A stretch of 64,000 nt of DNA from Bacteroidia bacterium. GTDB taxonomy: Bacteria > Bacteroidota > Bacteroidia > J057. The stretch's first letter is position 1; every line of letters begins with the position of its first letter. The translations under genes and the position numbers were made by a program. The stretch covers positions 7,192,001-7,256,000 of the forward strand of contig JAWPMV010000001.1 of NCBI GenBank assembly GCA_033391075.1. The letters run 5' to 3'. Below the pieces are notes generated by a model, which was not told the DNA's origin, did not search any database, and saw only the letters and a program-made list of their open reading frames with translations. Positions 21,763 through 28,826 of this stretch are shown in pieces.

Positions 21763-22845
21763 ATGAAAAAGGCATTTCTCTCACTCACCGTCTTGGCATT
21801 CATCGCTTCAGGCTGTGGGCTTTTCGGCGGCAAAGGAACTGGACACCATGGTGAACTGACTGGCGTAACAGACAGACTCGAATGGGATCAGTACCAGCCT
21901 ATGGGCATGGTATTCGTAACCCCTGGTAGTTTCCACATGGGACAAAATGACCAGGACGTTCCTTACTCCCAAATTGCCCACAATCGCCAGATTACGATCA
22001 GTGGGTATTTCATGGATGAATTTGAGATTACTAACAATCAGTATCGTCAATTCGTTTATGGACCTTCTGCTAATGAAGCTAATGCATTCCAGCAAAACGG
22101 TGCCCTTGACACTATAGACCCCATTTTGCAGGAAATCATCATTCCCGACACTACTGTCTGGATTCGTGATTTTGCATATGCATACAATGAGCCACTAATG
22201 GAAAACTATTTCTGGCATCCTGCTTTCGACAACTATCCGGTTGTTGGAGTAAACTGGTATGCTGCACAGGAATTCTGTAAATGGCGTACCCTTCACCTGA
22301 ACCAGTACAGAGAAGAGAAAGAATTGCCTGCAATGCCTCGTTTCCGTCTCCCTACAGAAGCTGAATGGGAATATGGTGCAAGAGGTGGATATGAGCACAA
22401 AATCTTCCCATGGGAGAGCCCATATCTAAGAAATAGCAAAGGGTGTTTCCTTGCAAACTTTAAACCTGGTAGAGGAGATTACATTGCGGATAATTTTGAA
22501 TATACGTCTCCTGTTGGAGCTTACTTCCCCAACGAATACGGACTCTGGGATATGCCTGGAAACGTTGCAGAATGGTGTGAAGATGACTTCGAAGAAACAG
22601 GTTACAGATATGCACATGATCTAAACCCTGTATACTATGATCGCGATCGCTTCCCGGATGAAGTAAGAATTCCCGGTGGTGGCAAAATCCGCAAAGTTAT
22701 TCGCGGTGGATCATGGAAAGATATAGGATACTTCCTCTCTTGTGGTACTCGTTCTTTCGAGTATGCAGATACAGCTAAGTCCTTCATTGGATTCCGTACT
22801 GCAGTAACAGTTATCGGACGCTCAGGCGCCGCTGGTAACTTCTAA
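21763..22845 (+). CDS. gldK: T9SS / gliding ring lipoprotein GldK (PorK)
   Basis: About 360 aa. Signal peptide with lipobox IASGC (Cys18), then an FGE-sulfatase-type domain: MGMVFVTPGSFHMG, DEFEITNNQYRQFV, YPVVGVNWYAAQEFCKW, RFRLPTEAEWEYGARGG, MPGNVAEWCEDDF and RGGSWKDIGYF. GldK with GldN forms the large periplasmic ring under the outer membrane. The catalytic Cys pair of true formylglycine enzymes is not needed here. ATG 21763 gives a proper lipoprotein signal; the upstream in-frame codon at 21709 does not. Confidence 0.93.
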   Translation: MKKAFLSLTVLAFIASGCGLFGGKGTGHHGELTGVTDRLEWDQYQPMGMVFVTPGSFHMGQNDQDVPYSQIAHNRQITISGYFMDEFEITNNQYRQFVYGPSANEANAFQQNGALDTIDPILQEIIIPDTTVWIRDFAYAYNEPLMENYFWHPAFDNYPVVGVNWYAAQEFCKWRTLHLNQYREEKELPAMPRFRLPTEAEWEYGARGGYEHKIFPWESPYLRNSKGCFLANFKPGRGDYIADNFEYTSPVGAYFPNEYGLWDMPGNVAEWCEDDFEETGYRYAHDLNPVYYDRDRFPDEVRIPGGGKIRKVIRGGSWKDIGYFLSCGTRSFEYADTAKSFIGFRTAVTVIGRSGAAGNF

Positions 22846-22982: not shown

Positions 22983-23762
22983 ATGGCAAGAAAAAAAGGT
23001 TTATTAAAGTCGCGTGGAGCGCAGGTAACCATGAACTTCATTTATGGTGCCGCTGCAGCAGTGGTAATCGTAGGAGCCCTTTTTAAAATATTACACTGGG
23101 AAGGGGCGAATGAAATGCTGATCATCGGAATGTTTACAGAAGCATTCGTATTCTTGATCTCAGCTATCGATCCACCTTCAGAAGAATATGAATGGGAAAG
23201 AGTATATCCTGTCCTTGCTGATGACTCTATGGTAGGTGATACATTAGTTGATACTACCTGGACGCAGGATGTAAAAAATCTCGACGGCGCTGTATTTGGA
23301 GAACTCTCCACTACACTTACCGGACTCAATGATAATGTATCCAAGCTTTCAAGCGTTACTGACGCTGCTGGTGCAACCAATGAGTATGCAAGCAAAATCA
23401 AAGAAGCTTCTAGCAAAATCGAAAGCCTGAATCAAAGCTATTCTATCGCTGTTGATTCTATGTCTGGATTCGCTAATGCTGCAACTGATGCGCAAGCCTA
23501 CCACGAGCAGGTTCAAACTATCACTCGCAACCTGAGCTCTCTGAACTCTATCTATGAGCTTGAATTGCAAGATGCCAAGACTCACCTGAAGTCTTTGAAC
23601 CAGTTCTACGCCAGCATGGGTGAAGCTATGCAAAGCATGGCTGAAGCTTCTACGGATGCTCAGCAATACAAAGAAGGAATGGAAGTTCTGAACAAGAATT
23701 TGCAGCGCCTGAACAATGTTTACGGTAACATGCTTTCAGCTATGGCTGGTGGTACCAACTAA
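22983..23762 (+). CDS. gldL: T9SS / gliding motor protein GldL (PorL)
   Basis: A 259-aa inner-membrane motor subunit. Two transmembrane helices near the N-terminus: TMNFIYGAAAAVVIVGALFK and MLIIGMFTEAFVFLISAI. Residues known to matter for proton-driven rotation in Flavobacterium GldL have counterparts: Tyr21, Lys35, His38 and the in-membrane Glu53. The rest (about 70-259) is a cytoplasmic helical tail with internal similarity (two copies of an SMSGFANAATDAQAYHEQV / SMAEASTDAQQYKEGM type unit followed by NRL/NLQRLN-type coils). With GldM it forms the rotary motor that powers gliding and secretion. Confidence 0.93.
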   Translation: MARKKGLLKSRGAQVTMNFIYGAAAAVVIVGALFKILHWEGANEMLIIGMFTEAFVFLISAIDPPSEEYEWERVYPVLADDSMVGDTLVDTTWTQDVKNLDGAVFGELSTTLTGLNDNVSKLSSVTDAAGATNEYASKIKEASSKIESLNQSYSIAVDSMSGFANAATDAQAYHEQVQTITRNLSSLNSIYELELQDAKTHLKSLNQFYASMGEAMQSMAEASTDAQQYKEGMEVLNKNLQRLNNVYGNMLSAMAGGTN

Positions 23763-23813: not shown

Positions 23814-25505
23814 ATGGCATCAGGTAAATTATCACCAAGGCAGAAAATGATCAACATGATGTACCTCGTGTTGCTCGCACTACTTGCCTTGAACGTAAGT
23901 GCCGAGATTCTGAATGCCTTCCAGGTATTCAAGGATAAACTGGGCACATCAGCTCTGGAAGCAAATGCAAATTCCGGAGACTTCATGGCATTGATGAAAG
24001 AAACCATCAATGAAGAGATCAAGAACGAAGGAAAACGTTCCAATGAAGGCTTGCTGGATACCCTGGATCAAATCAAAGGGCAAACCAGCGAAATCATCGG
24101 CAAGATCAATGGACATATTAGCCACCTCGAAAATGAGATCATCAAACGTGATCCAGAAACCAACAAATTGGTAAACCTCGGTGAAACTGAGAAGAACATC
24201 CAATATTGGTTAGGACAGGGAGATTCTCAAGAGGCCAATGACGGAAGAGGAGAAGGAGAAGCATACAAGCTTCACCAGGAGTTGGATGGTTATGTAAAAT
24301 ATCTGGTTGACATGTATAATGCTCAACTTAAGGACCAATCTCAAAGACTGAATCTTCCGGAAGAATTGCTCACTTCTGATGCAAAGCCTGAAGACACTCA
24401 GGACGGAGAACCCAAAACCTGGGAACTCTTTACTTTCGAAGGTCCTGCTATTGCAAACACTGCAATGCTTGAGAAAATCAAACTGGATATCTACGAAAAA
24501 GAAAAATCACTGCTTGACCTGCTCAACTCTCGTTTGGGAGTAGCAACCTTTAAAGCAGATAAAGTTGTTGATATCAACGCACCAATTTCTACCATCGTTC
24601 CTGCTGGTTTGCAATTCCAAACCAAGCTATATGTAGCGATGTCTTCCAGCCAAATCCAACCTAAGTTCTCTAGTAGCTCCGGTTCGATCAAAGTTGAAGA
24701 AGATGGTGGTGCATTGTTGACCATTGGGGCAAGAGGCGGCTCTATCCCTAAAGGAAGAAACGAAGGAAAACAGTCATACACTTATACTGTTCAGGTACCT
24801 AAGGCTACTGGTGGATTCGAAACCATCAATAAAACAGCTGAATTTGTGGTTCGTAAGCCAGAGGTTGTAATTACTTCTGCTGCTATCCAGATCCTGTACT
24901 CTCAGTGTGGTAATGATGTAAACATTGATGTTCCTGCTTTGGGAGATCAATACAATCCCTCTGTTTCTGTCAATAATGGATCTGTGATTCCTAATAAAAA
25001 ATCCAAGAAGAAATTCCGGATTGTACCTACAGGAAGAACTGCAAGAGTTGCTGTTAGCAGTGTTACAAATGGACAGAAGCTCCTGATTGGAAACGTGGAT
25101 TACAAAGTAATTCGTCCTCCCAAACCAGGAATCGATATGCGTGTAAACGGAAAACAAGTTAAAGGACCTGTTTCTAAATCTAGTAGGGTTCAGGTAAGAC
25201 TTACTGCTGATGCTGACTTTGCATCTGCGCTTCCTCAAGACGCAAGATATGGAATTGGTAGTGTTGAAGTTAAAGCTCAGCTTTCTCTCGGACCACCAAC
25301 CACAGTGAATCGTGTAAATACAGCTGGTAAAGATGCCTTGAAGCCCATCAACATTACTATGGGTACACAAGTAAGGCAGGCGCGCGCAGGTACCGCTGTT
25401 TACATCATCCTGAATGATATCTATAGAACAAATTTCCAAAACAAACGCATCGTGGATAAGCGTTTCTCTGAAGTAGAGAGAACTCTCCAGGTGGTTGTTA
25501 AATAA
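23814..25505 (+). CDS. gldM: T9SS / gliding motor protein GldM (PorM), first copy
   Basis: A 563-aa protein with one N-terminal transmembrane helix (SPRQKMINMMYLVLLALLAL, with Arg9 matching the Arg important in Flavobacterium GldM) and a long periplasmic part of four domains. Family landmarks: the helical D1, FEGPAIANTAML, VPAGLQFQTKLYV, SQCGNDVNIDVPALG in D3 and QVRQARAGTAVYIILNDI near the C-terminus. GldM carries rotation from GldL through the periplasm to the GldK/N ring. It follows gldL by 51 bp and precedes gldN by 33 bp. Confidence 0.94.
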   Translation: MASGKLSPRQKMINMMYLVLLALLALNVSAEILNAFQVFKDKLGTSALEANANSGDFMALMKETINEEIKNEGKRSNEGLLDTLDQIKGQTSEIIGKINGHISHLENEIIKRDPETNKLVNLGETEKNIQYWLGQGDSQEANDGRGEGEAYKLHQELDGYVKYLVDMYNAQLKDQSQRLNLPEELLTSDAKPEDTQDGEPKTWELFTFEGPAIANTAMLEKIKLDIYEKEKSLLDLLNSRLGVATFKADKVVDINAPISTIVPAGLQFQTKLYVAMSSSQIQPKFSSSSGSIKVEEDGGALLTIGARGGSIPKGRNEGKQSYTYTVQVPKATGGFETINKTAEFVVRKPEVVITSAAIQILYSQCGNDVNIDVPALGDQYNPSVSVNNGSVIPNKKSKKKFRIVPTGRTARVAVSSVTNGQKLLIGNVDYKVIRPPKPGIDMRVNGKQVKGPVSKSSRVQVRLTADADFASALPQDARYGIGSVEVKAQLSLGPPTTVNRVNTAGKDALKPINITMGTQVRQARAGTAVYIILNDIYRTNFQNKRIVDKRFSEVERTLQVVVK

Positions 25506-25538: not shown

Positions 25539-26441
25539 ATGAGAAATATCCTGCTTGTCACCATCCTAATTACGGCGTTCAGTCTCCCGGCTTTGGCACA
25601 GTTCAAGACTGAAGAAATCCGTCCTGAAGACCACTTTTGGCGTCGCAAGGTTGTAAACCGCATTGACCTCAATGAAAAGGTAAACAGCCCCCTGATCAAA
25701 CGCGAGAGCAGCTTCTACACAGGAGATAATACTCCTTATGCAGAAACTGATGGATTGATCATGACCCTGTTCAATGGCCTAAAGCAAGGTAAGTTCGTGG
25801 CTTTTGACCCCGATAGCCTTGAGAAGCCTATGAGTTATGATGAGGTACTGCAAAAGATCCAGGAGATCGAAGGTAGCCTCGAAGGAGAAGATGATTTTGA
25901 TTCCGGAGCAGAAGACGACTTTGGTGATGGAGAAGATGGAGAAGGATTCGATGACTTCGATGGGGATGAAGAAGATGACTGGGGATTCGGTGATGAAGGT
26001 GATGACGGATTCGGTGGAGACGAACTTGGAGACTCCATTGACGAAGTTGGCAAATCTGCATTTGGTGGAGGTGATTTCGATCCCGCTCCATTTGAAAATG
26101 TAGTTCACTTCATCGAAGACAGAATTTTCGACAAGACCCGTTCTGATATGGTGTATGACATCCAGTTGATCGATATCATTTGGACTGATCCAGGCGAAAC
26201 GCTTCCTGAGAAGCAGCTGATCACTTTCCGTTATGATGATGTTCGCGAAACCCTGGAAAGTGCACAGTGGAAAAACCGTTACAATGATGCTGAGTACAAA
26301 ACATTGCGTGAAGTATTCGAGCTGCGTTTGTTCCACAGCTATATCATCGACATATCTGGAGAAGGTATCCGCTCACTACATGAATCTGAATACCGTCGTC
26401 AAAAGATGGTTGAATTCGAGCACCACCTCTGGAGCTACTAA
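25539..26441 (+). CDS. gldN: T9SS / gliding ring protein GldN (PorN) with acidic insertion
   Basis: A 300-aa periplasmic protein, signal peptide 1-20 (PALA before QFK). Conserved family parts flank an odd centre: FWRRKVVNRIDLNEKVN and ETDGLIMTLFNGLKQG before it; HFIEDRIFDKTRSDMVYDIQ, LEVREVFELRLFHS-like and EYRRQKMVEFEHHLW after it. Residues about 111-170 (25869-26048) are almost only Asp, Glu, Gly and Phe in repeats such as DDFGDGEDGEGFDDFDGDEE. GldN joins GldK in the ring. The insert could bind calcium or be a flexible spacer. The operon ends at a terminator 20 bp downstream. Confidence 0.92.
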   Translation: MRNILLVTILITAFSLPALAQFKTEEIRPEDHFWRRKVVNRIDLNEKVNSPLIKRESSFYTGDNTPYAETDGLIMTLFNGLKQGKFVAFDPDSLEKPMSYDEVLQKIQEIEGSLEGEDDFDSGAEDDFGDGEDGEGFDDFDGDEEDDWGFGDEGDDGFGGDELGDSIDEVGKSAFGGGDFDPAPFENVVHFIEDRIFDKTRSDMVYDIQLIDIIWTDPGETLPEKQLITFRYDDVRETLESAQWKNRYNDAEYKTLREVFELRLFHSYIIDISGEGIRSLHESEYRRQKMVEFEHHLWSY

Positions 26442-26460
26442 TAGCAGGAAATGATTAAAA

Positions 26461-26497
26461 AACCCGGCACTGAGAAGATCAGTGTCGGGTTTTTTTA
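26461..26497 (+). terminator. Rho-independent terminator of the gldKLMN operon
   Basis: AACCCGGCACTGA (26461-26473) pairs with TCAGTGTCGGGTT (26479-26491) with one G-T wobble, loop of five bases, followed by seven T residues. Runs of A ahead of the stem let it work on either strand. It separates gldN from the second gldM. Confidence 0.9.
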
Positions 26498-26499
26498 TG

Positions 26500-26595
26500 T
26501 GTTCTGGTACTCCTGTGTTCTCGTGTTCTAGTGATTATCCCGAAATCAGAACCCAAAGAACAGGAGAGTGCTAGAACACCTGAGCACTAGAACAC
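26500..26595. repeat. GTGTTCT imperfect palindrome in the gldN-gldM2 gap
   Basis: Arms GTGTTCTAGTG (26523-26533) and CACTAGAACAC (26585-26595) are perfectly complementary, and further GTGTTCT / AGAACA copies line both sides (for example 26500-26506 and 26517-26522 against AGAACAGGAG). The 305-bp gap between gldN and the second gldM holds only the terminator, this element and an AT-rich leader. A related sequence lies at 7391-7438. Confidence 0.6.
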
Positions 26596-26746
26596 AATTT
26601 TCCTCCCTCTCCTGTAACCTTTCTGCCCTCCACCATTATGGGAGTATAGCATAATTCAACCACTCATACGAATTTCAAATAAAGTCGAAAAGCCAAGAAT
26701 CGACCTGGGAGAAGTATGCTCATTAACGAACCATCAGAAAGAAATT

Positions 26747-28420
26747 ATGGCAAATCAAAAAGTATCACCCCGGCAGAAAATGATCAATATGATGTATTTC
26801 GTTTTGCTGGCTATGCTCGCAATGAATGTAACCAATGAGGTACTGGATTCTTTTGAGTCGATCCGAGAACGTCTCAAGATTTCAGCGACTCAGGCAGAAA
26901 ACAACAACCAGGGATTTATCTCCATTATGAATGCTGAAATCGAGCGGCAGATGGAGATCGAGAAAAAAGAAGACAACAAAGGTTTGATCGATACACTGGC
27001 CATCGTCCAGGGTATGACAAATGAACTAATGAAATCCCTGGATCAACATGTCTTGGAAATGGAGAAGCTGGCGAAATATGATCCGGAGAAGAAGGAGTTT
27101 ACCAAGAAAGATGAACTGGACGAAAACTATGTGTATTGGATGGGCGAAACAGAAGAAGCGAATCAAAGAAGGGGAGAGGGAGAAGCATATGACTTGCGGG
27201 AAAGTCTCGATCAGTACGCACGGGCATTGACATCCATTTACAACTCACAGGTGAGGGATTCTATGCAAAGAAATCCCTTGTTAAGACAGGATCCTAAAGA
27301 AAGCAGTAAAGACCCTGGCAAGCGTTGGGAGCAATATACCTTTGAAGGGCCTGTAGTTGCCAATCTGGCAACTTTGGAAGCTTTACGGGTAGATGTCCTC
27401 CAACAGGAGAAAGAGTTATTGGAGGTGCTTAATAATCGTATAGCAGGGAAGATAAATATCATCGTCGATAGTATCGTAGCAATTAGCTCTCCCCTTGCCC
27501 AAATCGTTCCTGCAGGTCTCCCTTTTGAGACCCAATTATCCGTAGGGATGGTATCTCGTCAGGTGAAACCCAATTTCAGCAGTCCTTCTGGTAGAGTGAA
27601 TGTAGATGAGGGAGGAAATACAGCGACTTTGCAAGTGATGGCAAACGCCAGCAATATCCCTGCAGGGAAAGCAGAGGGCATGCAAAGCTATACGGCTAAT
27701 GTGTATGTACCCAAACCTGATGGGACTTTTGATACTTTGCAGGTTCGTCAGTCCTTCAAAGTTACCAAGCCGGAATTACAGGTATATTCTTTGGCCGTAA
27801 ACAACCTTTATCGCAACTGTGGAAATGGTTTGAATATAGATGTGCCTGCATTAGGTGTACATTATGATCCTGTAGTAACAGCAAGCAATGCCCAGGTAAC
27901 GCAGGCCAATGATTCTAAAAAGAAGTTTTTGATCATCCCTAATGGCAGAAGTAGTGTGGTAAGTGTTAGCTCCAGGACTCAGGGAAGGACGCTAAAGATC
28001 GATGACAGAAAATACAATGTGATTTCCCCGCCTAAGCCCGAGATCGATTTCCGGGTAAACAGAAGGTCTTATGTAGGCGGTGCTTCTGTTCCTAAAAGCA
28101 GTAGCTTTCATGTGAAACTGGTACCTGATGCTGAGTTCAAGCGCTTACTCCCCAGAGATGCTCGTTACCGCATTACCAAAATCAGTATAAAACTTAAAGA
28201 TGGGCTAAGACCCCCACGTACCCTACGCACAATCAATGTCTCCAATCAAAATGCTTTGGAAATGATCAGTTTGCCGGTTCCTGCAGAAATCAGACAGGCT
28301 AGAGCGGGTGATAGAGCATTTTTCGTAATCGAAGGAGTAGAGCGAATCAATTTTAGAGGAGGAACAGAGGAAGTGAAATTATCAGAAAGGGTGAGAACCC
28401 TGGCCGTGGACCTTCGATAA
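26747..28420 (+). CDS. Second GldM paralogue
   Basis: A 557-aa full-length GldM-family protein. Its N-terminus SPRQKMINMMYFVLLAMLAM keeps Arg9 and the transmembrane helix almost unchanged; FEGPVVANLATLEAL, VPAGLPFETQLSV, NCGNGLNIDVPALG and AEIRQARAGDRAFFVIEGV match the four-domain pattern of the first copy, but the rest has diverged widely. It has no GldL, K or N partner here and lies beyond a strong terminator, so it is a separate transcription unit. It may form an alternative shaft with the same GldL, or serve another system. The reading frame is intact, arguing for function. Confidence 0.9.
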   Translation: MANQKVSPRQKMINMMYFVLLAMLAMNVTNEVLDSFESIRERLKISATQAENNNQGFISIMNAEIERQMEIEKKEDNKGLIDTLAIVQGMTNELMKSLDQHVLEMEKLAKYDPEKKEFTKKDELDENYVYWMGETEEANQRRGEGEAYDLRESLDQYARALTSIYNSQVRDSMQRNPLLRQDPKESSKDPGKRWEQYTFEGPVVANLATLEALRVDVLQQEKELLEVLNNRIAGKINIIVDSIVAISSPLAQIVPAGLPFETQLSVGMVSRQVKPNFSSPSGRVNVDEGGNTATLQVMANASNIPAGKAEGMQSYTANVYVPKPDGTFDTLQVRQSFKVTKPELQVYSLAVNNLYRNCGNGLNIDVPALGVHYDPVVTASNAQVTQANDSKKKFLIIPNGRSSVVSVSSRTQGRTLKIDDRKYNVISPPKPEIDFRVNRRSYVGGASVPKSSSFHVKLVPDAEFKRLLPRDARYRITKISIKLKDGLRPPRTLRTINVSNQNALEMISLPVPAEIRQARAGDRAFFVIEGVERINFRGGTEEVKLSERVRTLAVDLR

Positions 28421-28426
28421 AAACCT

Positions 28427-28826
28427 CGTCATCTCGAAGTTTGGATTTGCGGTGGCATGCAGTGCTGAGAGATCGTGTATTTTATCTCGAACCGAAATAC
28501 AAGCTCCCTCGGCACACAGGAGCCAAAGCGCATCCTGGCTTCGGGATGACAGGATGTTTTCGTCATCTCGAAGTTTGGATTTGCGGTGGCATGCAGTGCA
28601 GAGAGATTGTGTATTTTATCTCGAACCGAAATACAAGCTCCCTCGGCACACAGGAGCCAAAGCGCATCCTGGCTTCGGGATGACAGGATGTTTTCGTCAT
28701 CTCGAAGTTTGGATTTGCGGTGGCATGCAGTGCTGAGAGATCATGTATTTGAATCGATCCTGAATACAATGTCCCTCGGCACACAGAAGCCAAAGCGCAT
28801 CCTAGCCTCAGGATGACAGAATGTTT
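28427..28826. repeat. Three tandem 134-bp repeats with inverted ends
   Basis: Copies start at 28427, 28561 and 28695. The first two differ at only two positions; the third has a diverged middle. Each unit begins CGTCATCTCGAAG and ends CTTCGGGATGACAGG (CCTCAGGATGACAGA in copy 3), so GTCATCTCGAAG and CTTCGGGATGAC form near-perfect inverted termini. Open frames run through the array in several directions but only reflect the repetition. This fills the 421-bp gap between gldM2 and uvrC. Related GTCAT-ended pieces lie at 44060-44088 and 44121-44206. Confidence 0.9.

Follow-up and report, generated by a model that had tools for sequence, protein, structure and literature searches.

In the known motor of the type 9 secretion system, five GldL subunits surround a GldM dimer, and Arg9 of GldM pairs with Glu49 of GldL (PMC12239597). 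In Leone et al. 2018, domain D4 of PorM alone suffices for PorN binding and D2-D4 are needed for PorK, and 'other extra orthologues of porM' are mentioned in passing for Flavobacterium johnsoniae (PMC5790014). The latter resemble the gene described here in being additional GldM-like genes beside gldKLMN; the passages concerned do not compare their number with that of wheels or address their origin, arrangement or function, whereas the present gene adjoins the operon and was traced across its family. The nearest functional precedent for a second axle with a different task is exbB-exbD1-exbD2 of Xanthomonas campestris (PMC3551730), in which a second axle gene lies beside a 5:2 motor operon and ExbD2, dispensable for iron uptake, is required in another role. 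This is, however, a Ton system built from another protein family, and that genome carries a second exbB elsewhere. Myxococcus AglRQS likewise pairs a single wheel protein with two different axles, but it has no clear sequence similarity to GldLM and both of its axle genes belong to the standard set (PMC9389320). GldN/GldO of F. johnsoniae represent a duplicated, partly redundant component of the same machine, although the duplicated part is a ring subunit and not the shaft (PMC9127263). In their count of 5:2 motor genes, Rieu et al. described the numbers of GldL and GldM as 'rather similar' (PMC9389320), and our literature search found no paper devoted to GldM paralogues.

Here we describe a second gldM (gldM2) located behind the gldKLMN operon in a stretch of 64,000 nucleotides (the window; C1:7192001-7256000) from a Bacteroidia genome of 9.49 Mb (G000). 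The features of the locus, in window coordinates, are:

21763..22845, + strand: gldK, ring lipoprotein and first operon gene (TIGR03525, 440 bits, cut-off 350)
22983..23762, + strand: gldL, pentameric wheel and proton channel (TIGR03513, 226 bits)
23814..25505, + strand: gldM1, operon copy of the shaft (TIGR03517, 219.8 bits; groups with the M1 of relatives)
25539..26441, + strand: gldN, ring subunit, operon copy (PF19841, 127 bits)
26457..26495, + strand: intrinsic terminator between gldN and gldM2 (17-pair hairpin, T tail, -25.6 kcal/mol)
26747..28420, + strand: gldM2, second full-length GldM (ORF, Pfam, TIGR03517, AlphaFold2 and PDB matches)
26768..26854, + strand: GldM2 residues 8-36, the GldL-contact segment: transmembrane helix containing Arg9 and Tyr17 (alignment)
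26855..27442, + strand: GldM2 D1, residues 37-232 (diverges no faster than D1 of GldM1, ratio 1.06)
27770..28417, + strand: GldM2 D3-D4, residues 342-557, the ring-facing end (fastest-diverging periplasmic domains)

The original prediction, of a full-length GldM paralogue of 557 amino acids after the motor operon, was correct to the residue. The GldM2 ORF matched the NCBIfam equivalog TIGR03517 over residues 1-545 with 240.4 bits (cut-off 180), a higher score than that of GldM1, and its periplasmic domains D1-D4 are present in order (PF12081, PF21601, PF21602 and PF12080), all above cut-off. The two copies share 43% identity and 63% similarity over 564 columns and have the same predicted fold. 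The AlphaFold2 model of GldM2 is that of a complete GldM (mean pLDDT 91.1), and when it was used as a Foldseek query, PorM/GldM occupied ranks 1-5, with PorM 7cmg and GldM 6ey4 as the best PDB chains. The modelled helix plus D1 gave TM scores of 0.73-0.75 against the cryo-EM GldLM motors 7sau and 7saz (TMt 0.75 for 7sau); whole-chain TM scores against PorM/GldM structures were low (about 0.3), which we attribute to differing inter-domain angles. The Pfam and TIGR03517 matches, predicted fold and PDB matches rule out a chance ORF or mis-annotation. The codon-position base composition of gldM2 is similar to that of neighbouring genes. GldM2 is thus like the GldM/PorM of type 9 secretion systems (TIGR03517; 6YS8, 7SAU, 7SAZ, 7CMG, 6EY4) in its four domains, helix, Arg9/Tyr17, length and predicted fold, and differs from the standard protein in lying outside the operon behind a terminator, in its diverged D3-D4 and in having no gldL of its own. 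An operon position is typical of gldM but does not define the GldM family. Between gldM2 and uvrC (28426-28826) we noted three near-identical tandem repeats of 134 bp, whose 33-base core occurs nowhere else in the window.

The gene starts about 300 bp past gldN, directly downstream of the gldKLMN operon proper and beyond its terminator, which, as originally predicted, is a strong one with 17 pairs and a T run. A strong terminator was present between gldN and gldM2 in all six genomes with a readable gap (G000, G002, G003, G004, G006 and G007), with energies of -17 to -26 kcal/mol. Upstream of gldM2 we found no match to the Bacteroidota -7/-33 promoter consensus. Its position behind the operon terminator suggests that gldM2 is probably its own transcription unit. 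Past the terminator, at 26498-26600, there is a second large inverted repeat (GTGTTCTAG.../...CTAGAACAC), and the entire gldN-gldM2 gap folds 5 sd below shuffles.

Within a family sample of 13 genomes, the named relatives being metagenome-assembled genomes, we identified GldM2 in eight genomes from seven genera (G000, G001, G002, G003, G004, G006, G007 and G010). These sequences form one clade (support 98/96, and 98 in a second tree) beside the GldM1 of the same genomes. The tree rules out a recent strain-specific duplicate and answers the question, raised with the original prediction, of whether the pair is old and conserved: it is both. The K-L-M1-N-M2 order is preserved in G000, G002, G003, G006 and G007 (the G007 contig starts inside gldK). 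The relevant G004 contig ends inside gldM2, and a second contig carries the remainder of a GldM2 next to uvrC and a gene for a penicillin-binding protein, neighbours which match the arrangement in the window. The G005 contig ends after gldN, and one GldM each was found in G008, G011 and G012 (genus g9). An intact gldM2 lies apart from gldKLM1N in G010, adjoining nadD/pssA/lysA-like genes (named by eye), and such genes also flank the linked copy in G002, indicating that gldM2 survived separation from the operon. Judged from the trees, gldM2 is the product of one duplication inside the family followed by long retention.

Genus g3 (G002 and G010) also encodes proteins derived from GldM that carry a lipoprotein-type signal (e.g. 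...LLFLASC, ...LGLFSSC) in place of the transmembrane helix. They retain D3 plus various further domains of GldM, and in the tree they fall inside the GldM1 of g3. Their loci are:

L038:7445-9055, - strand: GldM-derived lipoprotein
L048:8971-10602, - strand: GldM-derived lipoprotein
L049:9307-11100, + strand: GldM-derived lipoprotein
L050:8804-10102, + strand: GldM-derived lipoprotein

Far from being confined to this strain with a dN/dS near 1, the outcome that the original prediction had weighed against itself, gldM2 is under purifying selection: dN/dS was far below 1, and 0.10-0.30 for GldM2 where computable, these ratios being rough because synonymous sites are saturated. Nonsynonymous divergence was 0.49-0.70 for GldM2 versus 0.28-0.53 for GldM1. 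The excess is unevenly distributed along the protein. For matched genome pairs, the GldM2/GldM1 divergence ratio was 1.06 (0.99-1.14) in D1, 1.26 in D2, 1.46 in D3 and 1.50 in D4, and confidence limits separate D1 from both D3 and D4. Faster divergence of D2-D4, strongest in D3 and D4 and absent from D1, fits an altered coupling to the ring. Residues shared specifically by GldM2 sequences occur in D4 at positions 475, 483, 484, 486, 491 and 512. Gene conversion as a process keeping the copies alike was ruled out, as M1-M2 identity was 0.430 within and 0.424 between genomes.

At the GldL-facing end, R9, M12, I13, M16, Y17, L20, L24 and A25 do not vary among the 45 GldM aligned from the class, and a complete helix including R9 and Y17 is found in all seven full GldM2 sequences. 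The claim that the transmembrane helix and Arg9 were nearly unchanged therefore stands for Arg9 (and Tyr17) but not for the helix as a whole: residues 1-36 of GldM2 are 69% identical to GldM1, and helix identity between genomes is 69% for GldM2 versus 86% for GldM1. The divergence ratio of the 36-residue membrane segment was 2.2, with wide limits (1.45-4.05). Because this segment is more variable in GldM2 than in GldM1, we can only infer that GldM2 fits GldL.

Genome-wide searches of G000 returned two GldM, one GldL, one GldK over cut-off and two GldN; a GldJ-like protein scored 327.9 bits, below the GldJ_short cut-off of 382.9. Exactly one GldL over cut-off was found in each of the 12 family genomes having any. 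These counts rule out a hidden second gldL or a complete second set, and leave GldM2 no other candidate wheel of the GldL family. The original prediction that no extra gldL, K or N is present was thus upheld across the genome for L and K, and for N within the window only; of a matching gldL2/K2/N2 set elsewhere, we found the following gene alone:

C1:7910136-7911014 (L053:10136-11014): second gldN (GldN2), an orphan unlinked to the operon (genome search)

GldN2 stands by itself among unrelated genes, is 45% identical to the operon GldN and falls in an orphan-GldN clade common to most family members. A specific co-evolution or pairing of GldM2 with GldN2 gained no support: family members without gldM2 also carry a second gldN, and the distance correlation is weak (r 0.34, weaker than the 0.74 for GldM1-GldN2; 15 non-independent pairs).

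On balance, and with moderate confidence based on these sequence comparisons, we favour gldM2 as an alternative drive shaft of the type 9 secretion/gliding motor, placed on the shared GldL and coupled differently to the ring. With a single GldL available, the wheel of GldM2 is most likely that of GldM1; this part of the original prediction, which saw GldM2 as a possible alternative shaft on a common GldL, gains support from the lack of a second GldL in any family member and from the age of the pair and the purifying selection on it. We envisage that gldM was duplicated once within the family and that gldM2 is probably transcribed separately, which may allow separate regulation. The GldM2 helix would insert into the same GldL pentamer as that of GldM1, most likely as a GldM2 homodimer, giving the cell two kinds of motor with one common wheel. 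With the membrane-side D1 kept as in GldM1 and the ring-side D3-D4 changed, the GldM2 motor would probably couple differently to the GldK/GldN ring. Its ring partner might, as a guess, be the second GldN, which would fit the association of GldN counts across the class described below but fits neither the distance correlation nor the second GldN of members lacking gldM2. A naturally occurring second shaft that keeps the membrane half and changes the ring half may tell which half is generic and which picks the partner. It also bears on the shaft-ring contact and on how a single GldLM motor can drive secretion as well as gliding.

We consider it unlikely, although the best of the alternatives, that GldM2 instead pairs with GldM1 in mixed dimers, so that a single motor type would have an asymmetric shaft. 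The axle is a dimer inside the pentamer, the two copies have the same predicted fold, and the AglR wheel of Myxococcus works with two axle proteins, AglQ and AglS, which may form homo- or heterodimers (PMC9389320). However, a matched 1:1 dosage is not enforced, given the conserved terminator before gldM2 and its unlinked position in G010. An obligate heterodimer should also tie the rates of its subunits, but GldM2 is the faster-evolving copy and the correlation between GldM1 and GldM2 distances is poor (r 0.2). It is still less probable that GldM2 has no distinct role and is a redundant backup or a copy in slow decay. Faster evolution and fewer invariant sites than in GldM1 would agree with decay, but the ORF has long been retained in eight divergent genomes at a dN/dS of about 0.1-0.3 where computable, D1 is as constrained as in GldM1, position and terminator are retained, and there is no sign of gene conversion. 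That GldM2 works without GldL, as a passive structural or regulatory shaft or driven by another wheel, is very improbable: the genus g3 lipoproteins, having lost the GldL-binding helix, indicate that GldM domains are usable without GldL, but the complete helix with R9 and Y17 in seven of seven full GldM2 is something that a passive protein would not need.

The second shaft gene is real, old and conserved, and its interest derives mainly from the recurrence of the one-wheel/two-shaft pattern. The original prediction had treated the arrangement as local, whereas it arose repeatedly in the class. At least 21 of 159 Bacteroidia genomes (counted by hand, and including three of the window's own family) combined a pair of full-length GldM, both over cut-off, with one GldL match. 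In the tree, the second copies group by family (f1, f45, f15, f30, f19 and f48) or fall in a joint f31/f44/f51 group. This grouping by family points to at least six separate gldM duplications in the class (branch support by SH-aLRT only). Among the matches listed, two or more GldN were found in 19 of the 21 two-GldM/one-GldL genomes versus 26 of 90 one-GldM genomes (Fisher p 2e-7), and by family in 11 of 12 versus 14 of 43 (p 5e-4), a test that handles relatedness partly. The repeated origin of two shafts with one wheel suggests that one proton-driven motor can take alternative drive shafts. We tentatively raise the wider possibility that Bacteroidia repeatedly evolved motors in which one GldL pentamer could take either of two dedicated GldM shafts, often with an extra GldN, so that the choice of axle would switch or split the proton motor between two outer-membrane machines, e.g. 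secretion and gliding. In these genomes, at least 21 of 159, the number of wheels does not follow that of shafts, which makes the sharing of one GldLM motor by secretion and gliding, and the meeting of shaft and ring, testable in cultured relatives. Reading 20 two-GldM stretches, we found the order K-L-M-N-M2-N2 in family f30 and several members of f45, and in f15 K-L-M-N followed at a distance of about 2.4-3 kb by M2. In four stretches from f45 and f30 (L108, L111, L112 and L114), a further gldM and a further gldN stand behind the operon, either in tandem or nearby, and each stretch holds one gldL only.
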